DNA from: Raineyella sp. LH-20
Lineage (GTDB): Bacteria > Actinomycetota > Actinomycetes > Propionibacteriales > Propionibacteriaceae
Assembly (NCBI RefSeq): GCF_033110965.1
Contig: NZ_CP137003.1
Location: forward strand, 992,001-1,056,000
Length of the DNA: 64,000 nt
Direction: 5' to 3'
Shown in pieces: positions 23,249 through 34,786 of the stretch. The stretch's first letter is position 1. Every line of letters begins with the position of its first letter. Both the position numbers and the translations under genes were made by a program. The notes under the pieces are model-generated. The model was not told the origin of the DNA. It ran no database searches and saw only the letters and a program-made list of their open reading frames with translations.

Positions 23249-24712
23249 TCAGCTGGCCCACTGTCCGGTGGCGAACATCCACGCCCACCACACCATCAGC
23301 CCGATCGACACCGCCGCGGCCAGCCCGACGAGGAGCCGGCCGGCGTACGGCCGGGTCCGGTCGTCCGCGACCCCACCGTCGCGCTCGGTCTCACCGTCGC
23401 GCTCGATCCCACCGTCGCGCTCGATCCCACCGTCGCGCTCGATTCCCAGGCTCCGCCGCGTAGTCTCCACGCCCCGACGCGCAGTCTCCACGCCCCGACG
23501 CGCGATCGCCCCGGTCTCGCGGTCACCCGCCGACCGCCTGCCGGTCAGCCGGTCCGCGAGCTCGCCGAGGATCGCCCAGGTGGGGAACCACAGCAGGACT
23601 GCCCGGTTCACCGACATCAGCCACGGCGAGAACGAGAAGGCCAGCACCTGCACCCCGACCCAGGAGGCCTCGGCCCACCGGCGACGCCGCAGCATCCAGC
23701 CGGTGGTGAGCAGACCGATGGTGAAGGACACCAGTTCGTAGCGGAAGATCCAGCCCCAGCCGTTGGCGTCGGCGTAGCCGCCGGGGCGTACGGCGATCAA
23801 GGTGGCCCGGACCGATTCCCAGGGCCAGGTGAACGTCCGCTGCCAGCCCTCCTGCTGGGCGGCGAACCAGGCCGTCCACGACCCGGTGAGCGTCCACAGG
23901 TAGACCACGTACGCCAACAGCACGGCCAGCGGGACGAGCATCCAGACCGCACGGGAGGCCGCGACGCCGAGCCGTCGCCCCAGCTCCTTCCCTCGCGCGC
24001 CCGGCCAGGTCAGCGCCAACACCACCAGCGCACCGATCAGGAACAGTCCGGAAACCCGCAACGTGGTGGCAAGAGCGGCGAGCACGGCGGCGGCCGCCCA
24101 GCGGTCGGCGCGGGCGCGCTCCCAGGCCCAGAAGGCGGCGGCACAGAACAGCGCCTCGGTGTAGCCGACGACCGTGAACACGGCGGTCGGCGCGATCAGC
24201 CAGGCCACCGTCGCCCACGTCCCCGCGGCCTCGGGCTCTCCGGCACGCCCGCCGGCCTCTCCGGCACGCCCGCCGGCCTCCCGGGCACCCCCACCGGCCT
24301 CTCCGGCACGCCCACCGGCCTCTCCGGCACGCCCGCCGGCCAGCCGGACCAGCGCGGCCGCGGCCAGGGCGGAGGCCACCAGGGAGAGCAGTGCCCCGGT
24401 CACCTCGGGAGGCAGCCCGATCGTGGAGCCGAGCCGCATCAACAGCGGCAGCCCCGGGAAGAACGCCATCTCCTGGTGGTCCGGTGCGTAGCCCTGGTGG
24501 GCGATCCGGGCGAAATGCGCCACGTCCCAGTTGCCGAGCACCCCGATCACTCCCCGGCCGGTGACCGCAGCCGTCACCAGCAGCGTGCCGAGCAGCACCG
24601 TACGACTGGCGATCCAGGCGACCACGACCGGCCGGGCCCGTACGCGCACATCCTCCTCGAGCGGGGAGGTCCCGGCGGGCGGCCGGGGCTCGGCCGGCCG
24701 GGGCTCAGCCAC
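23249..24712 (-). CDS. PIG-V-like integral membrane mannosyltransferase
   Basis: 487 residues with roughly ten transmembrane segments. The catalytic loop WDVAHFARIAHQGY followed by EMAFFPGLPLLMR fits the PIG-V-like family of polyprenol-phosphate-dependent mannosyltransferases that act on the outer face of the membrane in cell-envelope glycan synthesis. GTG 24712 was chosen: it overlaps the stop of the preceding penicillin-binding-protein gene by 8 bases and has AAGGGG upstream, giving translational coupling. An ATG at 24850 would overlap that gene by 146 bases. Two loops consist of short tandem repeats (EAGGRAG units and GIERDG/RRGVET units), very likely unstructured and variable. Confidence 0.78.
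   Translation of the reverse strand: MAEPRPAEPRPPAGTSPLEEDVRVRARPVVVAWIASRTVLLGTLLVTAAVTGRGVIGVLGNWDVAHFARIAHQGYAPDHQEMAFFPGLPLLMRLGSTIGLPPEVTGALLSLVASALAAAALVRLAGGRAGEAGGRAGEAGGGAREAGGRAGEAGGRAGEPEAAGTWATVAWLIAPTAVFTVVGYTEALFCAAAFWAWERARADRWAAAAVLAALATTLRVSGLFLIGALVVLALTWPGARGKELGRRLGVAASRAVWMLVPLAVLLAYVVYLWTLTGSWTAWFAAQQEGWQRTFTWPWESVRATLIAVRPGGYADANGWGWIFRYELVSFTIGLLTTGWMLRRRRWAEASWVGVQVLAFSFSPWLMSVNRAVLLWFPTWAILGELADRLTGRRSAGDRETGAIARRGVETARRGVETTRRSLGIERDGGIERDGGIERDGETERDGGVADDRTRPYAGRLLVGLAAAVSIGLMVWWAWMFATGQWAS
23374..23445. repeat. Four 18-bp in-frame repeats in the mannosyltransferase gene
   Basis: CACCGTCGCGCTCGATCC and close variants repeat at 23374, 23392, 23410 and 23428, coding GIERDG-type hexapeptides on the minus strand. 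A neighbouring 21-bp repeat (about 23466-23502) codes RRGVET. Confidence 0.88.
24236..24340. repeat. Five 21-bp in-frame repeats in the mannosyltransferase gene
   Basis: Units start at 24236, 24257, 24278, 24299 and 24320 and encode EAGGRAG-type heptapeptides in an extracytoplasmic or cytoplasmic loop. Unit three is the most diverged. Confidence 0.9.
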
Positions 24713-26945
24713 CGGTGGTCTGCCCCTTGCCGCCCCCACCACCGCCCGGCAACACCCCGCCCGAGCCGAGGTCGATCCCCGTGCCGCCGTCAGTGCCGGT
24801 GGACGTCTGCGTACTGGGCTTCGGTTTGCTCGTCGGCTGGCTCGAGGCATCGGCCGACGGCCCGTGATCCTTGGGCCCGTTGCCCGGCGTCTTGGTCGCC
24901 GTGGGGGTCGCCGTCGGCTGCGACGGCGTGGTCACCGCCAGCGGCGAGGCCGTCCGACGGGCCGGAAGGTTCGCCGCGGTGTCGAAGTTCTCCACCGGCA
25001 TGCCCTTGGTCGCCGCCTGCATGTAGGACAGCCAGGTCAGCGCGGGGTAGCCGGCGCCGAAGAACGTCGGGGTGCCCGGCTGGCGATAGGGGTCGAGGTC
25101 GCTGGAGCCGTCGTCACCGGCGACGTACATCACGGCGGTCGAGATCTGCTTGGTGTAGGCGACGAACCAGGCCGAGGCGATGTCGTTGCCGACACCGGCG
25201 GTACCCGTCTTGCCCGCCACCGGTCGGTTGAGCGCCGATGCCTTGGCACCGGTGCCCTCGTTGACCACCGACTGCAGGGCCGCGGTCGTCGTAGCGGCGA
25301 CGTCCTTCTCGACGGTCTGCTTGTTGCCGGACGGCGCCTTGTAGAGGACGTTCCCGTCGCGGTCCTTGACCTCACGGATGACGTGCACCTGGTTCTGCCT
25401 GCCGCTGTTGGCGAGAGTGGCGTACGCGTTCGCCATGTTCACCGGGCTGACCTCGGCGAAGCCGAGCACGATGCGGTTGTACGGGTCCCAGGCGCCGGCC
25501 TTCGGGGCGCCGGCATCGTTGGCCGCCTGGATCACCTTCTGCGGGCCGTTGTCCATCTGGGAGACCATGTCGACGAAGGCGGTGTTGATCGACTGGGCGG
25601 TGGCCACCTGCAGGGAGACCGGACCGTACTGGGTGCTGAACTCGTTGCGGACCGTCTCGCTCTCGCCCCGCGGGGTGAACGTGTTGCCCTGGAAGACCGA
25701 GTTGAGGGTGAAGCCGTCGCGCAGACCGGCGATCAGGCCGAACGTCTTGAACGTCGATCCGGTCATCCGGGCCGTGGAGGCCCAGTTGCGGGAGTTCTTG
25801 ACGAAGTCGTCACCGCCGTACATGGCGATCAGCTCGCCGTTGGAGCTGTCGACCGACGCGATCGCGGCATGGACGGCGTTGGCGTTCGTGCCACGGGACC
25901 GGGCCGCCTGGTCGGCAGCGGCCTGGTTCGTCTGCGCCGCCTTCTCGGCGGCCGCCTGGGCCTGCTGGTCGAAGGTGGTCGTCACCCGCAGGCCGCCGCC
26001 GTTGATCTGGGCGTCGGTGAAGCCGAGCGAGGCCAGCTCCTGCTCGGCCATGTTGACCAGGAAGCCCTTCGGGCCCTGGTAGCGCGGGTTGGCCTTCACC
26101 GTCGGCAGCTCCGGCATCTTGCCGGTGAACTGGTTGTACTGGTCCTTGGTGATGGACTTCTCGTCGAGCATGCCGGACAGCACGTACTCGTAGCGGGCCT
26201 TGAGCCGGCCGATGTTGTCCGGGTCGACCTTCGGGTCGAGGATGCTCGGGTTCTGCACCACCGAGGCGAGGACCGCGGCCTGGCCGACACTGAGGTCCTT
26301 GGCGTCGATGCCGAACCACGCCTGCGAAGCGGCCTGCACGCCGTACGCCCCACGACCGAAGTAGACGGTGTTGAGGTAGTTGGCGAGGATCTCCTCCTTG
26401 CTGAGCCGGTTGCTCAGCTTCAGGGCGAGGATGACCTCTTTCACCTTGCGGGAGATCGTCTGCTGCGGCGTCAGGTACATCAGCTTGATGTACTGCTGGG
26501 TGATCGTCGAGCCGCCCTGGATGTCCTTGCCGGAGGCGATCGCGACCAGGGCGCGGACCATACCCATCGGCGAGATGCCCGGGTTGGTCCAGAAGGTGCG
26601 GTCCTCGGCCGCCACCTGGGCGTCCTTCATCGCCTTCGGGATCTGGTCGTACGGCAGGCTGGTGCGGTTCTGCACCGCCAGGTCGGACAGCTGGGTGGTG
26701 CCGTCGCCGTAGTACAGGTACGTGGTGTTGGTCTGGAAGTCCGCGTTCGGGTCGGGCACCTTGGTCGTCGAGTAGAGCCCCGCGAACGCGACACCGCCCA
26801 TCAGCCCGACGGCCACGACCGCCGACACCACGATGGCGAGGATCTTCTTCCAGAGGGCCATCCTCCGCCACCTCGACGTCTTCACCGGGGCGGCGCCTCT
26901 ACGGGCGCCAGCCGGGGGCCGTGAACGCGGGGTCATGCGAGCCAT
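24705..26945 (-). CDS. Class A penicillin-binding protein (transglycosylase/transpeptidase)
   Basis: 746 residues. A short basic cytoplasmic tail is followed by one membrane anchor (ILAIVVSAVVAVGLMGGVAF). The glycosyltransferase 51 domain has AAEDRTFW, GGSTITQQYIK and KVKEVILALK. The transpeptidase domain has the SxxK motif in RMTGSTFKTF, SQMDN as the SxN motif and KTGTAG as KTG. A Pro/Thr/Ser-rich tail ends in a glycine run. It polymerises and cross-links peptidoglycan outside the membrane. ATG 26945 follows AGGA at suitable distance; the frame stays open through the tRNA gene, which cannot be coding. The downstream mannosyltransferase overlaps by 8 bases, linking two envelope functions. Confidence 0.92.
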   Translation of the reverse strand: MARMTPRSRPPAGARRGAAPVKTSRWRRMALWKKILAIVVSAVVAVGLMGGVAFAGLYSTTKVPDPNADFQTNTTYLYYGDGTTQLSDLAVQNRTSLPYDQIPKAMKDAQVAAEDRTFWTNPGISPMGMVRALVAIASGKDIQGGSTITQQYIKLMYLTPQQTISRKVKEVILALKLSNRLSKEEILANYLNTVYFGRGAYGVQAASQAWFGIDAKDLSVGQAAVLASVVQNPSILDPKVDPDNIGRLKARYEYVLSGMLDEKSITKDQYNQFTGKMPELPTVKANPRYQGPKGFLVNMAEQELASLGFTDAQINGGGLRVTTTFDQQAQAAAEKAAQTNQAAADQAARSRGTNANAVHAAIASVDSSNGELIAMYGGDDFVKNSRNWASTARMTGSTFKTFGLIAGLRDGFTLNSVFQGNTFTPRGESETVRNEFSTQYGPVSLQVATAQSINTAFVDMVSQMDNGPQKVIQAANDAGAPKAGAWDPYNRIVLGFAEVSPVNMANAYATLANSGRQNQVHVIREVKDRDGNVLYKAPSGNKQTVEKDVAATTTAALQSVVNEGTGAKASALNRPVAGKTGTAGVGNDIASAWFVAYTKQISTAVMYVAGDDGSSDLDPYRQPGTPTFFGAGYPALTWLSYMQAATKGMPVENFDTAANLPARRTASPLAVTTPSQPTATPTATKTPGNGPKDHGPSADASSQPTSKPKPSTQTSTGTDGGTGIDLGSGGVLPGGGGGGKGQTTGG

Positions 26946-27297: not shown

Positions 27298-27373
27298 GGG
27301 GCATTGGCGCAGCTGGTAGCGCACCTGCTTTGCAAGCAGGGGGTCAGGGGTTCGAATCCCCTATGCTCCACCA
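27298..27373 (+). tRNA. tRNA-Ala (anticodon TGC)
   Basis: 76 bases with an encoded CCA end. The acceptor stem GGGGCAT pairs with ATGCTCC (one G-U), the anticodon stem is CCTGC/GCAGG around TTTGCAA with TGC at 27331-27333, and the T arm is GGGG-TTCGAAT-CCCC. The 3' half is a common integration site, and an integrase remnant follows 130 bases downstream. Confidence 0.97.
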
Positions 27374-27500: not shown

Positions 27501-27860
27501 TCATTCCGCCGATCGGCCCGGGGTACCGTGCGGGCCGGTGGTACCCGATCGGTACCGGCGCACCAGCTTCCCCATGGCATCTCCGACGTCGTCGAGGGGC
27601 CGGTCCCACAGGTGTCCTTCCCGATCAAGCGTCATCTTCGCCGGCTGGTGTCCCAGCATCGCCTGGACCGCCTTCACGTCAGCTCCACTTGCGATGGCCA
27701 ACGACGCGGTCGTATGGCGCAGATCGTGAGGGACGACCTGCGCTGGGCGCCCGGCGGTTGGCCGAGCCTTTGAGAACACCCTTCGGCGCCAGTCCAGGTA
27801 CCAGCCGGGACGCCGGTCGGGTCTCTCACCACGTGGATGTAGCCCGACAAAGGGGTCGCA
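27501..27860 (-). pseudogene. C-terminal remnant of a tyrosine integrase, active-site Tyr missing
   Basis: The minus-strand frame directly after the nucleotidyltransferase stop codes GERPDRRPGWYLDWRRR and then VPHDLRHTTASLAIASGAD, VKAVQAMLGHQP and MTLDREGHLWD. This is the HxLRH/LGH/Tyr end of phage-type integrases, but the usual RYGH tyrosine is replaced by Glu (codon GAA). About two thirds of the protein is absent. The remnant is in the same frame as the upstream gene, separated only by TAG 27863-27861, so a rearrangement fused the junction. Its place behind tRNA-Ala marks the edge of an integrated element that can no longer excise by itself. Confidence 0.82.
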
Positions 27861-29156
27861 CTACGCGGCGTTGGCGCTGATCGGTACATCAATCGAGTCG
27901 CGCGCGACCACAATCCCGTCCTTGATGACGTAGCACTCGACGATGTGCTCGCCTCGGAAGGACGTCCGCTCGTGCCGAACTCCGGGGCGACTTGACGAGA
28001 TGATCTGGCCCCGGATGTTGTTGCGGCGTTCGGCTTCCTCGCCTCGGTTGAGCACCTTCCACCTCACCTCGTACGGCTCCTGCACATCGCACCCGGTGAT
28101 GGCGAAGTCGAGTTCCTTATTTGGGAGGAGCAGGCTTCGCCCCCGGAGCATCTCCCGCAGCAAAGCTGGTCGCCATCCGTTCTGCGTGACCATGCAGTCG
28201 ATCGTGACCGAACGGCCGATGTCGACTGGGAACTGGTTCTCGATGAACTCCTCGGTGTTGGTGAAGGCATGGGCGGATTCGCTGGTCGCCAGCGGCACCG
28301 CGGTGCCGAACACCTCGCGCCACTTCTTGTTCGCCGAAGCCGTGCCCTCATCAGCGATCGCTTCGCGGCAGCGGTTGTACGCCTTCTTCGCCTTGGGCTG
28401 GAACCTCCGCTTCACCTTCACATGCTGCTTGCTGCCCGGCGCGAGGTAGTAGTCCTGGTCTGGCTCGTTCATCAGGAACTCGAAGAAGTCGCGAACCATG
28501 GAGTCAAACCAGAGCGTTCCCTTGTCGTCGTATTCCGTCGTGTTCGAGAAGAACCCGTGGACGAGCGTGTCAATGAGCAGGCCTCCCATGACTACACCGT
28601 TCGTGTCCTTCCACGCCCGCGCCAACCGGGCGAGGTGGCGCATGTTCCTCGAGGTGCGATCGTTGCACTCCTTCGTTGCAGCGATCTCGTCGCGCGGTTT
28701 GGTGGTCTTCCAAGACTTCGACTTCGTGTCTGGGTAGTCGAAGCTTCCGTCCGCGTTCTCGAACGCCGGCTGGACCTCGAACTTGAACTTGTTGCTGGTG
28801 AACTGCACTCGCACGACGCACTGGTCGACGCGAATATCGGTGTTCGGGTAGCGGGCCTTGAGAGCGTCCTTGACTCTCGTGAGGGCTCGACGCGGCCCCG
28901 TCTCTGTGTCATAGGTCGAGCGCAGCGAGGCCGGGAGGATGAAGATCATGTCCAGGTCAGACACGCCTCGGATCGCCGTGTTACGACCGTAGGATCCGAC
29001 CATCAGCCGGTTCGCTGTGGAGCCCTCTACGGCCCTGAAGTCCTTGTTGAGCGCCTTCGTGATTTCGTCGCGGCGCATGGCGATCGTGGCACTCGCGGCG
29101 CCGACCTTGAGGTTCTCAAGCAGCGCGTCGAAGATCTCCGAGACCTTCACGTTCAC
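27861..29156 (-). CDS. SMODS/CD-NTase-type nucleotidyltransferase with AGS-C sensor domain
   Basis: 431 residues. The polymerase-beta-like core has GSYGRNT (residues 54-60), the metal pair in SDLDMIF (D67, D69) and the third acidic position in KFEVQPAF (E127), followed by DGSFDYPDT. The C-terminal third (about 310-431) looks like the AGS-C ligand-sensing domain: PYEVRWKVLNRGEEA, RRNNIRGQI, FRGEHIVECYVIKDG. Such enzymes make cyclic nucleotides in CBASS, or DNA oligomers in the Hailong system. GTG 29156 overlaps the SLATT gene stop by four bases. All catalytic acids are present. The GC content is lower than in neighbouring core genes, consistent with transfer. Confidence 0.87.
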   Translation of the reverse strand: MNVKVSEIFDALLENLKVGAASATIAMRRDEITKALNKDFRAVEGSTANRLMVGSYGRNTAIRGVSDLDMIFILPASLRSTYDTETGPRRALTRVKDALKARYPNTDIRVDQCVVRVQFTSNKFKFEVQPAFENADGSFDYPDTKSKSWKTTKPRDEIAATKECNDRTSRNMRHLARLARAWKDTNGVVMGGLLIDTLVHGFFSNTTEYDDKGTLWFDSMVRDFFEFLMNEPDQDYYLAPGSKQHVKVKRRFQPKAKKAYNRCREAIADEGTASANKKWREVFGTAVPLATSESAHAFTNTEEFIENQFPVDIGRSVTIDCMVTQNGWRPALLREMLRGRSLLLPNKELDFAITGCDVQEPYEVRWKVLNRGEEAERRNNIRGQIISSSRPGVRHERTSFRGEHIVECYVIKDGIVVARDSIDVPISANAA

Positions 29157-29752
29157 GCCTCGTTCTCGTTGAGACGCAATGCCTCGGGCAAGAGGAAGTC
29201 GATCTCGCGAGAGGAGAAGGTCAGTTCCTCGTTGTTCTTCAGGCCGTCCTGCGCTCGTCCGTAAGCCTTGGCTGTGGTCCGCGGCGCTTCGGCGTAAGCC
29301 TTGCGTGTCGCTTCCTGGAGCGCGTCGCGCCGGGCGCGAGCGTCGGTCGCCGACGTCGCGCCCGACATCAGGTCGGCAATCAATGACGCGTACGACTCAC
29401 GCACATCCCACAGGCGTGAAGCGATGTCGCGGTGGGCCCCCGACTCCTCGTCGAACCTGAAGCTCTTGGTCGCAAGGCTCAGGGCGCTGACCACTATCGC
29501 AATGGCCGAGGTCGCGAGGCTGGTGAGGACCGGGCTGCCGACGAGCCCGAGCACGCCCGCCAGGAAGGTTCCGGTGCTGAGCGCCGTGAAGGCGACCAGC
29601 AGGCCCTGCTGCCACCGATGCCTCTTGAAGCACAGGTCCGCCTGCTTCTCGTGGGTCTTGTGGCTGTAGGCCACTCTGCCGAAGGCCTCACGAACCTGGG
29701 CGAGGAGGTACTCGTTGTGCGCATCGTCGGTGGCGGGTTCAGGCGACATCAT
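29153..29752 (-). CDS. SLATT-domain two-transmembrane effector
   Basis: 199 residues. VAYSHKTHEKQADL leads into two membrane helices (about 49-69 and 76-95), then SLATKSF, a soluble helical part with LWDVRESYASLIADL and APRTTAKAYGRAQDGLKNNEELTF, and a terminal IDFLLPEALR. This is the SLATT (SMODS and SLOG-associating two-TM) family, predicted to form a membrane pore on activation and kill or arrest infected cells. It is translationally coupled to the nucleotidyltransferase that follows. The pair matches known CBASS-like and Hailong (HalA-HalB) layouts; which of the two mechanisms applies cannot be settled from sequence alone. An alternative start is the second ATG, one codon on. Confidence 0.87.
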   Translation of the reverse strand: MMSPEPATDDAHNEYLLAQVREAFGRVAYSHKTHEKQADLCFKRHRWQQGLLVAFTALSTGTFLAGVLGLVGSPVLTSLATSAIAIVVSALSLATKSFRFDEESGAHRDIASRLWDVRESYASLIADLMSGATSATDARARRDALQEATRKAYAEAPRTTAKAYGRAQDGLKNNEELTFSSREIDFLLPEALRLNENEA

Positions 29753-29764
29753 GCTCCGTTCTTC

Positions 29765-30052
29765 CTACGGCGTTACAGAGTCCTCCAAGCGGCAGAGCGC
29801 AGGAAGAGCGACAGCGTTCGGGGGATCGCTGCATCGCCTCCCATCATGGGGAAGACCACTGACATCGCCTTCGCTGTGCGCTGTCATGTCGCGGTCGAGC
29901 GCCGGGGGCGTAAACCCTCCCTCCGCGAGCACGGCGGTACGGGCCGCCGAACGGCCCACGCTGAATCGCGCTCCAACCTCGGTCAACGAGAGTCCCGTCG
30001 CGTACAGCCGAGCAGCAGCCTCTGCCCCGAGTTGGCTCGAATTGGTGCGCAC
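29765..30052 (-). pseudogene. Fragment with helix-turn-helix similar to recombinase/transposase DNA-binding ends
   Basis: The frame contains EAAARLYATGLSLTEVGARF followed by SVGRSAARTAVLAEGG, an HTH of the kind seen at the ends of resolvases and some transposases. The rest has no recognisable fold. It directly abuts the decayed transposase at its right and may be a second IS remnant. Function is unlikely. Confidence 0.35.
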
Positions 30053-30805
30053 CCTCGCCGGCGAGAAGGTCGAGGATCTCCTGGGCCGCGGGTGGGATGG
30101 CTGGTGGGACCGTGATTGTCCGGGTGCCGGTGTTGATCACTGCTGACTGCAATGGCCGCAGGGTCTGCAGGAACTTCTTGATCGACAGTCCGGTGCGGGC
30201 CTGGACCGTGCGCCCTACGGCGAGGGCGGCGAACACGACGGGGAGGTGAGCCTCGATCGAGTCGCGGGTGCGGCGGAAGACGGTCGAGCGGCGAGGTCGC
30301 TCTTGGCCATCCGAAAGGAGGCTTCAACCTGCCACAGGTCGCGGTAGGCCGCGACGGCGGCCGGCCCGTCGAGGAGGTTCGGGGACAGATTGGTCACATA
30401 CCCCTTGAAGCCGGCGGCGGCGCGGGCAGCTCGACCAAGCCCCAGTCCGCGCCCTTGGTCGCACCCTCCAGCTTGACGAAGCGGTGCTTGCCGACGGGGC
30501 TTGGCCCGCGGCGATCTTCTCGGCGCGCTGGATCTGCTTGTTCAGCGTCTGTTGGTCGCGGCGGGGCCTGGAGGCGAGGTAGTGCCAGACCACCCGGCGG
30601 TCGCGCCGGTCCGTGCCGATGCCCATCGGGCGAGTCACCTTGAACGTGGCACCGTCGGGCTGGTAGTTGCAACCCGGCGTCCTCCAGGCGTTCAGGTTCG
30701 CCGCCGATACATGCCCGCATCGGCCACCACGACCAAGTCCGTCACCTGGTGAAACCAACTCGGGTCCGTCGCCGTGGGATCGCGATATGGCGGTTGAGCG
30801 GCCTC
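30053..30805 (-). pseudogene. Decayed IS1634-type transposase
   Basis: On the minus strand, in at least three frames, one can read VTDLVVVADAGM, then SAANLNAW, VVWHYLASRPRRDQQTLNKQ, GYVTNLSPNLLDG, AYRDLWQVEASFRMAKSDL and VVFAALAVGRTVQARTG. These are consecutive motifs of IS1634/IS4-like DDE transposases (the ADAGM aspartate and the QVEASFRMAK glutamate). The N-terminal third and an internal segment are missing and frameshifts separate the pieces. It lies between the nucleotidyltransferase/SLATT pair and the next module and records earlier transposition in the island. Confidence 0.78.
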
Positions 30806-30869
30806 CACTTACGCAGATGTTTGGCAGTAGCCTTTGTCCGACGCGGCTGCGACACGAATGGGAGGGCCG

Positions 30870-31868
30870 ATGAACCTCGTCAGTCTCGCTATCAAGGGCG
30901 TGCCGAAGCTCGCGAAGGCCGGACCGAAGGTTCTGGTGCCGCTCGGGGCGGGTGCTGCTGTCGCAGTCGCTGCCGCGACAAAAGGCGCGGTCGACCTCCA
31001 CAAGGGGAAGGACACCCGTCGCGGGGCGATCACTCGACTGGCAGAAGCGCTATCGGATCTCAATGCCATCGAGGTCGAGACCGAGCGCATTGCGCAGGAG
31101 TACGGCGAGTTCCAGATCGGCGTCCATACAGCGAATCTGAGTCGCTTCGCCGACTGGCTCGAACGGAACCAGGCACAGGTGAAACGGCTCAACTTCAAGA
31201 AGGTTGACGGCGTACGCATCAGGGTGCCGAGTGTCCCGAAGTTCGTAGCAGGAGTCCAGGCGATCACTACTGGCGCTGCCGGACTTGTCGGTGCAGTAGG
31301 TGCAGGAGCCGCTGCCCCTGCGGCTGCGCTCTGGGGCGTATCCACTCTCGGAACGGCCGGTACAGATGCCGCAATCACGGGTCTGAGCGGCGCCGCGGCG
31401 ACGAATGCGACGCTTGCCGCACTTGGAGGGGGCACGCTCGCCGCGGGCGGCGGTGGGATGGCCGCCGGCGCCGCCATCCTCGGTCTGACAGCGGCAGTCC
31501 CGGCGCTGCTCATCGGCGGATTCACCGTCGGAGTCGTCGGCGCGAAGGCCAAGACGGAGTCGAGGAAGTTTGCCGCGGAGGTGAGCCTCGAGATTGAGCG
31601 TGTCGGCCTCGCCAAAGATCTACTGCGGGCAGTGCAGCGACGTATCGGAGAACTACGGGATCTGCTCGACCGTATGGCTCAGTGCTCGTCCGCAGCGCTC
31701 GATACGCTGGAGTCGGTCGAGTTCGACGCTGAGAGGCACGCGAGCGAGTTCCTCCGTGCGCTCCAACTCGTCACCGCCGTCAAGGAAATTCTGAATACTC
31801 CGGTTCTCGACCCCAAATCGGGTGAACTGAGTGAGGCATCAATCGAGATTACGAGGAAGTACGCATGA
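30870..31868 (+). CDS. Unrecognised glycine-rich membrane protein, first gene of a coupled pair
   Basis: 332 residues, no family named with certainty. The start at ATG 30870 follows GGAGGG; the frame is open slightly upstream. Residues 1-40 include a hydrophobic Ala/Val/Gly stretch (LVPLGAGAAVAVAAATKGA). Residues about 45-110 are helical and charged. Residues about 118-215 are a long Gly/Ala/Thr-rich hydrophobic block (GLVGAVGAGAAAPAAALWG, AAATNATLAALGGGTLAAGG) of the glycine-zipper kind, followed by a coiled-coil tail. This suggests a protein that inserts in membranes, possibly a pore-former. It overlaps the next gene by four bases. Its position among defence genes makes an anti-phage role plausible but unproven. 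Confidence 0.72.
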   Translation: MNLVSLAIKGVPKLAKAGPKVLVPLGAGAAVAVAAATKGAVDLHKGKDTRRGAITRLAEALSDLNAIEVETERIAQEYGEFQIGVHTANLSRFADWLERNQAQVKRLNFKKVDGVRIRVPSVPKFVAGVQAITTGAAGLVGAVGAGAAAPAAALWGVSTLGTAGTDAAITGLSGAAATNATLAALGGGTLAAGGGGMAAGAAILGLTAAVPALLIGGFTVGVVGAKAKTESRKFAAEVSLEIERVGLAKDLLRAVQRRIGELRDLLDRMAQCSSAALDTLESVEFDAERHASEFLRALQLVTAVKEILNTPVLDPKSGELSEASIEITRKYA

Positions 31869-32308
31869 GCCGGCCCAACGCCGTACAGCCCCTCAGCCAG
31901 ACCGCGAAGAACCTCCTGCCCAAGCCTGGTCCCGCGATGGTGGTAGACACCTTCAACCTGGTTCTCGCTTCCGCGAACCAGTGGGTCAATGTGATCAACG
32001 AGGAGAAGACGAAGCGCAATGAGATTCGGGCTTGGGAGCAGACCCAAATTGAGATCATCCATGTGCAGCGCGACTTCCTGCTGACCGCACTCGACAAGAC
32101 CTTTGACGAGCGCAGCGAGAACTTCCGGAGGCTCTTCGACAACCTCGAAGTTGCTCTCACCTCAGAGCGCGACGACGCAGGGACTCAAGTCTCCGAGATC
32201 CTTGGTGCGATCACGGACCTCGCACAGACAAGCCCGTTCAAGGACCTTAGGAGTCCTACTCTGGTTGTCCAAGGGTTCCTGCAGGGCGGAAAGGTCATCG
32301 AACTCTGA
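31865..32308 (+). CDS. Unrecognised coiled-coil protein, partner of the glycine-rich protein
   Basis: 147 residues. ATG 31865 overlaps the previous stop (ATGA). Residues about 40-120 are predicted helical and charged (VINEEKTKRNEIRAWEQTQ, FDERSENFRRLFDNL). No membrane segment or known domain is visible. Strict coupling to the glycine-rich membrane protein suggests the two work as a complex, for example as pore and regulator. Nothing in the sequence assigns a reaction. Confidence 0.68.
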   Translation: MSRPNAVQPLSQTAKNLLPKPGPAMVVDTFNLVLASANQWVNVINEEKTKRNEIRAWEQTQIEIIHVQRDFLLTALDKTFDERSENFRRLFDNLEVALTSERDDAGTQVSEILGAITDLAQTSPFKDLRSPTLVVQGFLQGGKVIEL

Positions 32309-32426: not shown

Positions 32427-34292
32427 TCATGCGCCCTCGGCGAGTGATTCCTCGTGGCTGTCCGGGCGGTCGTCGGGCACCTCTACCTCGTACTCGGCTG
32501 CGACAGCCAACACGTCGACTGCGCCTTGTTCTCGAACGACGGGTTTGCCCATCGCGCCTTCGATCAGCCCGATAAGGAAGTTCTTGCGGTAGGCGAAATG
32601 CGCCTCGAAGTCGTCGTTGCGAAGGGCATTGGTGTCAATGCCATGGGTCGCGATGATCCTGTCGACGTGGGTGATGTCGAGCTGCGACCTCGACTGGACG
32701 CGGGGCAGGTACTCGGTCGGTGCGACCCCGCCGATCGCACGGTTGGTCGCTGCAGCAAGGGGTGTCTTGTTGATGATGCTGTCCCACTGGGAGCGGTCGA
32801 GGTTCCTGTCCTTGCTCCATTTCTCCGGAAAGATGTGGTGAATGTCGGTCTGCAAGGTCTTGTACTGCACGCGGCTGAAGGTGACGTCCTTGATCCAGTC
32901 CTTCGCGCCCGTGCCGATAATGAGCGCGTAAATGCCCTTGTAGGCGGCGGACTGGCGGGTCTTCAATGTGTAGAGGCGCCGTTCCTGGAAGAGCGCCTCG
33001 CTGACCGTTCGCGGTGCGACGGACGTCGTGTCCCGTGCCCACTCAGCCAGTTGCTCGACATCGCGGGCGAAACGCGTCTCCGTCGCGCTCCCATACAGCT
33101 CTCCGAGGATTCCGCACCAGTACCACCGCTTCAGGCGCTCCTTCACCCCGTGGTTGTCCGCGATATCGTCGAGGATCACCTTTGTGACGGCGAGCGGCAC
33201 AAGCTGAGTCGGGTAGGGCATGAAGCGCGGCTCGAAAATGTGAAGGTCGGCGACAAAGACAGCCGTCCACTCGAATGCCTTCACGAGGACGCCTCGCCAC
33301 TCCAAGTAGTCGGTGAGTTGCAGCTTCAGGATGTCATCGCGCTTCGCGGAGATCGCGGGCTTTCGCTCAGCGGTGCTGTCCCTGTTCCGCTTCCAGGTGG
33401 TGAGGAGCGTTGCGGCTTGGAGGAAGTCGGTGCTCCCCAGGCTGGTGAGCACCGGCTCGGCCCTGAACTCGTCCTGGATCGCAGTCCAGTCGTCGTTGAG
33501 GCGGAAGTCGTCCCCGTGCTGGTCGAAGTAGGCCTTGTCGCCAGCGAACGTCGCGGTGAGCAACTCGAACACGTTAAGCGGGACGCCCCCGGTGTTCACC
33601 TTCTCGAAGACCGTGGCCACCGCGGACTTGCTGGTGTCACTGCCAAGCTGGATGGCGGGGATCTGGTAAGTTGCGGTCGGCTTGAGGACCAGTTCCATGA
33701 ACTGCTTGGCGAGCTCTTGGTTCGCGATGCCGTATAGCCATCCGTTCTGGTCGTACCCAGCGAAGAGCAGTCGGAGTGGGAACCACGCCTGCTGCTGTTC
33801 AAGTGCCGGGGTGCTCAGGTCGAGGACGATGTCGCGGTCGAAGTTGGTCTTGATCTTGCCGTCACCGGGAACGGACTTCACCGATTCGTCGATGAACTCG
33901 TCGCCTTGCACGGCCAGGGCCATGTCTACGTAGTAGCGGCGATCGAACAACTTCTTCTTGTCGTCCTTGGTGTGGACGATGCCGTCTCCCGTCAGGGCTT
34001 GGGTCAGAGACGTCAAACGCTGCTGCCCATCCAGCAGCAGCAGCTTCGGTTCCGCGCCCTGCGCAACGCTCGTGCCACTGACCGGCTTGGGCTTGAATCG
34101 CACCTGGTCACTACCAGTTTCCAGGAGCATGACAGCTCCCATCGGGTGGCCGCGGAGGACCGTGACGAGCAGCGACCGAATGCGTTCGTCCTCCCACTTG
34201 TACTCACGCTGGAAGTCGGGCAGCTGGAGACGACCGCTGGACGTCCATGTCAGGTAGTCCGAGAGGGGCGACTTCGGTGTCTCAAAGCCCAT
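32427..34292 (-). CDS. DUF262 protein with C-terminal HNH nuclease motif (GmrSD-like)
   Basis: 621 residues. The N-terminal DUF262 (ParB-like NTPase/nickase) domain has LPDFQREYKW (about 25-33) and DGQQRLTSL (about 88-96). A long helical middle part follows. Near residue 484 the motif DIHHIFPEKW, then NKTPLAAATNRAIG, forms a His-Asn-His-type nuclease site. This layout is known from type IV restriction enzymes (GmrSD) and related anti-phage nucleases that cut modified or unmodified foreign DNA. ATG 34292 is used with AAGGA upstream. It is convergent with the two-gene module before it, so it is probably a separate defence unit. Confidence 0.85.
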   Translation of the reverse strand: MGFETPKSPLSDYLTWTSSGRLQLPDFQREYKWEDERIRSLLVTVLRGHPMGAVMLLETGSDQVRFKPKPVSGTSVAQGAEPKLLLLDGQQRLTSLTQALTGDGIVHTKDDKKKLFDRRYYVDMALAVQGDEFIDESVKSVPGDGKIKTNFDRDIVLDLSTPALEQQQAWFPLRLLFAGYDQNGWLYGIANQELAKQFMELVLKPTATYQIPAIQLGSDTSKSAVATVFEKVNTGGVPLNVFELLTATFAGDKAYFDQHGDDFRLNDDWTAIQDEFRAEPVLTSLGSTDFLQAATLLTTWKRNRDSTAERKPAISAKRDDILKLQLTDYLEWRGVLVKAFEWTAVFVADLHIFEPRFMPYPTQLVPLAVTKVILDDIADNHGVKERLKRWYWCGILGELYGSATETRFARDVEQLAEWARDTTSVAPRTVSEALFQERRLYTLKTRQSAAYKGIYALIIGTGAKDWIKDVTFSRVQYKTLQTDIHHIFPEKWSKDRNLDRSQWDSIINKTPLAAATNRAIGGVAPTEYLPRVQSRSQLDITHVDRIIATHGIDTNALRNDDFEAHFAYRKNFLIGLIEGAMGKPVVREQGAVDVLAVAAEYEVEVPDDRPDSHEESLAEGA

Positions 34293-34786
34293 GGCAGTCC
34301 TTCGGCCGGAAAGTGTGCGTCTCTCCACACGGTATCGGGTCGTGCGCACCGTCACCCCAAGCCGGACGTCGGTCATGCAAGCGCCGACCGGATCAGCCGC
34401 GGCGCCCACCGGATGGCCATATGCATCTGCGGTCCGCCAAGGCGCCGGCCCCTGCTCGGACAGGTCGGAGGCCGACCGGCGGTGGTTGCGTGGCTTCTGC
34501 TGGCAGCGGTCGGCGTCCTGTCCTGGCTCCTTGGGGCGTCGTCCTACTGATCGGCCTCCTCATCACCACCTAGTCCGGTCGACATCGGGGGTCCAACCTC
34601 TACGCATGACTCCCCTCCTGGTTGGCAGTTGCCATGAGGCACGGATACCCAGCAGCAGTCCCGACCGGCCGCCGATCGAACGGCCCGAGCGGGCCCCCGC
34701 CCCACTCGCGACCTCGTCCCCCAGGACTGCTATACAGGAAGCGGCCGTCGTCCGGCGACCGTACGCCCGACCGGCGGAAGGCTCGC
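34293..34786. other. Region without a supported gene
   Basis: 494 bases between the DUF262 gene and the small frameshifted membrane gene. Several frames are open, but none has a ribosome binding site and family resemblance together. This probably is the worn right border of the island; no copy of the tRNA-Ala 3' end was seen by eye. Confidence 0.35.

Follow-up and report, generated by a model that had tools for sequence, protein, structure and literature searches.

The window analysed here, a 64,000-nucleotide stretch of the Raineyella sp. LH-20 genome, contains an island of defence genes in which two overlapping open reading frames, here called A and B, lie side by side. They raise the question of whether so small a pair is an anti-phage system in its own right, and by what means it could act. 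The initial annotation had described them as a glycine-zipper membrane protein with a coiled-coil partner and proposed a new type of abortive infection. Both frames are present where it placed them, with an overlap of 4 nt between the TGA of A (31866–31868) and the ATG of B (31865–31867), and the ATG of A at 30870 lies 3' of a GGGAGG sequence (Table 1). The nearest relative found, in Microbacterium aurantiacum (locus L014), shares 79–80% protein identity with both A and B. Changes relative to this locus at codon positions 1, 2 and 3 number 41, 41 and 171 in A and 19, 9 and 59 in B, and dN/dS is about 0.11–0.13 for each gene. The third-position bias and these dN/dS values indicate that A and B genuinely code for proteins and are subject to purifying selection.

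Table 1. Features of the A–B pair and its island in the window
Feature	Position	Strand	Basis or remark
tRNA-Ala	27298–27373		Beside the island
Tyrosine-integrase C-terminal remnant	27501–27779		Pfam Phage_integrase, E 1.4e-8
CBASS operon, two genes	27861–29752	-	Pfam/PADLOC matches
CBASS cyclase, SMODS + AGS_C	27861–29156	-	
SLATT_4 effector, two-TM	29153–29752	-	
Degenerate segment with frameshifts	about 29760–30760	-	Transposase remnant by eye
GGGAGG ribosome-binding sequence of gene A	30860–30865	+	Direct sequence reading
Gene A, 332 aa, Gly/Ala-rich membrane-type protein, PDC-M09A homologue	30870–31868	+	ORF and profile search
A residues 40–99, predicted first long helix	30987–31166	+	AlphaFold2, pLDDT 80–95 in most blocks
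A residues 126–225, hydrophobic Gly/Ala/Thr-rich core	31245–31544	+	Composition and hydropathy
A residues 153–202, signature (SGAAATNATLA..GGGTLAAGGGGMAAG), best-conserved part of the family	31326–31475	+	Bits per site
A residues 225–281, predicted second long helix	31542–31712	+	AlphaFold2, pLDDT > 89
Gene B, 147 aa, helical partner without membrane segment	31865–32308	+	4-nt overlap with A
B-core, B residues 45–117, common to the C-terminus of larger effector-bearing partners	31997–32215	+	hhalign 97.3% and 97.4%
GmrSD_N (DUF262) gene	32427–34409		Pfam match

The GC content of the island is mostly 0.60–0.65, compared with 0.66–0.76 around it. Three congeners keep the left flank (a PBP gene and the tRNA-Ala gene); their DNA to the right of the tRNA differs, and they match the right flank in short stretches only. 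No attachment-site direct repeats were found around the island. The neighbours first annotated as a nucleotidyltransferase/SLATT system and a DUF262 nuclease are, more precisely, a complete-looking CBASS operon, with an SMODS/AGS_C cyclase and a SLATT_4 effector, and a GmrSD_N protein. The CBASS operon is likewise a defence system with a membrane effector, but it lies on the opposite strand, encodes unrelated proteins and is set off from A–B by the degenerate segment, in which no Pfam family was matched. Neither A nor B matches the CBASS models, and the A–B relatives inspected have no CBASS gene in the same operon. Elsewhere in the window, an ORF on the reverse strand (23249–24850) encodes low-complexity AGEAGGR and GIERDGG repeats, the remainder being membrane-protein-like.

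Protein A contains the Gly/Ala/Thr-rich hydrophobic core of roughly 100 residues noticed at the outset. The segment comprises 24% Gly, 31% Ala and 11% Thr (66% together), with a single charged residue and a mean hydropathy of 1.25. The label of glycine zipper given to it does not hold in the strict sense, as GxxxG occurs twice compared with 5.4 times in shuffled sequences, and GxxxGxxxG is absent. In the homologue alignment, the signature within the core reaches 3.39 bits per site versus 1.7–1.8 in the long helices. This position as the most conserved part of A suggests that the Gly/Ala signature is more than an anchor, and the conserved part should be the one that meets the membrane. The AlphaFold2 model, built on an alignment of 72 rows with one plasmid-collection row left out, predicts two confident long helices of about 60 residues each, and a Gly/Ala head with pLDDT below 50 at residues 141–201.

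Foldseek searches of the PDB returned nothing significant for either protein (for A, nothing at E ≤ 0.001), and sequence searches of the PDB gave chance matches of coiled-coil type only. Pores of the ClyA superfamily (SmhB, AhlB and ClyA) recur in the Foldseek list of A at E values of 1–5 and query-normalised TM scores of at most 0.29; the best is SmhB (E 1.1), and ClyA itself has an E value of 2.9 and a TM score of 0.29. This recurrence, which concerns a predicted model, is a hint and not evidence of membership. Alpha-pore-forming proteins of the ClyA/Smh/Ahl type may resemble A in general layout, with long helices (predicted confidently in A) and a hydrophobic head, and often have more than one component, but they show no significant sequence or fold match to A, and they are secreted toxins whereas A–B sits in defence islands. 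The same resemblance would fit an exported two-component pore-forming toxin directed against other cells. Such a role is very improbable given the lack of a significant fold match, the context of intracellular defence, and the TerB and YkgJ genes that accompany the operon in other lineages (see below). A predicted viral structure of 336 aa (BFVD A0A5C2IFQ2) matches the model of A with an E value of 5e-3, a probability of 1.00 and a TM score of 0.45.

Among family databases, Pfam, NCBIfam and PHROG contain no significant match to A. The protein is, however, recognised in PADLOC by two models of PDC-M09A, PDLC04407 (E 2.7e-25) and PDLC04406 (E 3.5e-20). PDC-M09 is a phage defence candidate of PADLOC-DB 2.0.0, consisting of genes M09A and M09B; PDCs are computational candidates, mostly described as unvalidated (2026 survey, PMC12988326). 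Protein B has no PADLOC match at E ≤ 1 and no convincing match to curated family models, and the short B proteins of loci L004, L006 and L013 also lack a PADLOC match. The gene pairing at the window is that of PDC-M09, but B has 147 aa versus about 480 aa in M09B. Neither the N-terminal domain nor the hydrophobic segment of M09B is present in it, which explains why no M09B model matches it.

Weak matches of some A homologues to the C-terminal part of PADLOC LeoBC (E 9e-7 to 1e-3) bear on a different role, that of remodelling or repairing membranes in the manner of a bacterial dynamin-like protein reduced to its trunk and paddle, minus the GTPase, which would be protective and not suicidal. LeoBC and other bacterial dynamin-like proteins have, like A, a glycine-rich hydrophobic tip between long helices, and LeoA is described as having a Gly-rich paddle (PMC4159319). 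However, A of the window does not match LeoBC at E ≤ 1, neither A nor B contains a GTPase domain according to Pfam and PADLOC, and the LeoBC matches of the homologues fall within the Gly-rich region, where composition may account for them. This role is therefore rated as improbable.

Relatives of A were not detected by a single-sequence scan of genome contigs and were collected by scanning 84,980 species genomes with an alignment, from which the best 80 of 256 relatives were examined. Among these, a short B gene adjoins A in at least 46 loci including the window, starting between -40 and +23 nt from the A stop codon, in many cases at -4 or -8. The 46 loci span about eight phyla: Actinomycetota, Cyanobacteriota, Myxococcota, Pseudomonadota, Campylobacterota, Bdellovibrionota, Bacillota and Latescibacterota. 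The distance matrices of A and B correlate with r = 0.91 over the 46 pairs, the maximum of 2000 permutations being 0.22. DNA similarity between the window and L014 covers about 30823–32308, that is the two genes and some 47 nt upstream, and ends at the B stop codon. The adjacency, the correlation and the restriction of this similarity to the pair identify A–B as the unit, in agreement with the two-gene module described initially.

Protein B was described at first as a soluble coiled-coil protein. It has no hydrophobic stretch of membrane length (maximum KD19 1.03), nor does KD19 exceed 1.6 in any of 48 B homologues. AlphaFold2 predicts, with moderate confidence, a long helix at residues 23–79 followed by shorter helices at 81–98 and 105–121.

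In many other loci among the best 80 of 256 relatives, A is adjoined by larger partners. A mixed group of them resembles PDC-M09B, and partners in three loci (L055, L060 and L086) contain an LRAT domain or an evident homologue of it, that of L060 matching Pfam LRAT with E 1.3e-16. B-core aligns with the C-terminal domain of the PDC-M09B-type partners at an hhalign probability of 97.3% (E 2e-11, 87 columns) and with that of the LRAT-type partners at 97.4%; as a coiled-coil control, A against B gave 6.6%. By these profile comparisons, B of the window corresponds to the C-terminal domain of PDC-M09B-type and LRAT-fused partners, standing alone as a separate protein. A–B is probably a compact short-B variant of the PDC-M09 candidate family, to judge from sequence comparison, whose existing second-gene models miss B. 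The profile searches therefore qualify the view that the pair is absent from described defence systems: A is listed as PDC-M09A, and B, reached only through hhalign with the larger partners, corresponds to the C-terminal domain of PDC-M09B-type proteins. On the other hand, neither a phage assay nor a demonstrated function for any family member was found in the literature searched. Of the initial interpretation, a conserved unit of two genes in a defence setting, with a probably membrane-active A and a coiled-coil B, is supported. The pair falls between a wholly new system and one already characterised.

A further homologous partner occurs in ten proteobacterial loci among the best 80 of 256 relatives, and the single one tested matches PDC-M40B, from the PADLOC candidate PDC-M40. 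These partners are HNH-like by eye, without a Pfam match, and on first impression appeared to be B-core fusions, which is ruled out by an hhalign probability of 0.1%. The PDC-M40B-type pairs differ from A–B in lacking B-core and in having A proteins that group in a clade of their own. Partner type tracks the A tree, with 9 changes compared with 30.4 in shuffles.

Several additional genes were observed at the family's loci. A small CxxCxxCC gene (YkgJ, PF03692) is present in the operons of L050, L067, L078, L131 and about 20 others, and a TerB-like gene, possibly a further component, is located directly upstream of A in L049, L059, L074, L082, L090 and L091. One or both of these are often added to operons of Pseudomonadota, Campylobacterota, Spirochaetota and others; YkgJ was not seen in the actinobacterial or cyanobacterial loci examined. 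In cyanobacterial loci L022, L023, L025, L029, L031 and L061, a conserved gene of about 165 aa, with a weak match to sigma70 region 4, lies divergently upstream of A. Two cyanobacterial loci contain a second, shorter A-like gene next to the pair (L022:10885–11640 and L035:7213–8079). In a Streptomyces-type relative (L006:1–1284), a PycTM-domain gene and a DUF4407 gene are directly upstream of A.

The occurrence of B-core at the end of partners with different N-terminal parts, and the constancy of A whatever the partner type, could also mean that A is a membrane platform or scaffold and not a killer. B-core would then dock effectors such as LRAT or M09B-type domains, and the short form would use an effector encoded elsewhere or recruit host factors. 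This is the main alternative, albeit an unlikely one, as B is free-standing in at least 46 loci and no recurrent third gene accompanies it in actinobacteria or cyanobacteria, except for the divergent sigma-like gene in some of the latter.

The family is patchily distributed. A is absent from all three congeners and present in few of 58 relatives, among 395 genomes of the class, B was found in 4, and 17 of 120 genomes (14%) of one cyanobacterial order carry the family. Some copies of A–B reside on plasmids. No DNA similar to the Acinetobacter copy was detected in E. coli genomes, no relative was found when viral contigs were scanned with the A alignment, and a tblastn search of phages with three A proteins gave none. 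Plasmid copies, two small overlapping genes in tight co-inheritance and the toxin-like composition of A are what would be expected if A were a membrane toxin and B its antitoxin, mainly stabilising mobile DNA and not stopping phages. The fusion of B-core to effector-bearing partners would be unusual for an antitoxin, and anti-phage genes lie nearby, making this explanation rather improbable, below the platform described above.

The neighbourhood survey points to defence. With PADLOC matches at E ≤ 1e-10, 148 neighbour ORFs from 17 loci yielded 151 PADLOC families and 144 control ORFs from the same genomes yielded 12; these counts are of models, not of proteins, and the enrichment overstates protein number, a single DUF262 protein alone accounting for 31 models. 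Distinct systems near A comprise AbiLi, Septu PtuA, Druantia DrmB, an Argonaute-associated Cas4-like nuclease and DUF262. Of 24 genomes, 5 have DUF262 genes no farther than 20 kb from A, versus 0.32 expected (Poisson P about 2e-5). Among the plasmid copies, the pair directly follows hsdR-hsdM-hsdS in Vitreoscilla, adjoins a phosphorothioation-associated gene in Massilia, and is near a SIR2 protein and toxin-antitoxin genes in Acinetobacter. Some cyanobacterial loci are, by eye, near ordinary genes such as folD and alaS. A housekeeping or metabolic gene pair that entered the island by accident would fit those loci; the patchy distribution, the plasmid copies and the proximity of defence genes argue against it, and it is as poorly favoured as the exported toxin. 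A defence role of A–B is well supported by genomic context.

In the reading preferred here, to which we assign a probability of about one half, A and B together make up a minimal anti-phage module whose target is the bacterial membrane and whose outcome is abortive infection. A would be a rod of two helices of about 60 residues bearing a Gly/Ala-rich, almost charge-free head, and B a small helical protein bound to its stalk that would hold A inactive or control its assembly. Phage infection may trigger the release or remodelling of the complex; the heads of A would then be inserted into the inner membrane and A would oligomerise, possibly as a pore. The loss of inner membrane integrity would stop phage production at the cost of the cell, with A as the presumed toxic component. 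Because relatives have this same domain at the C-terminal end of larger partners, including a class with a lipid acyltransferase domain of LRAT type, B-core is best read as a docking domain joining A to an effector; in the short form of the window, A itself would be the effector.

A more specific version of this proposal is tentative and considerably less probable. According to it, A–B would be an intracellular two-component alpha-helical pore for phage defence, in which B-core serves as a swappable docking domain, either free-standing or fused to a lipid acyltransferase-type or other effector. If so, the family would build different killers on one conserved membrane-inserting protein.

PDC-M09A already figures among the listed defence candidates, and what existing models miss is the short second gene B. 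As a free-standing docking domain, B would define a minimal version with two genes in about 1.5 kb, and B-core unites several partner classes from many phyla in one modular family. If confirmed, this would be a membrane-acting defence with interchangeable effector parts.
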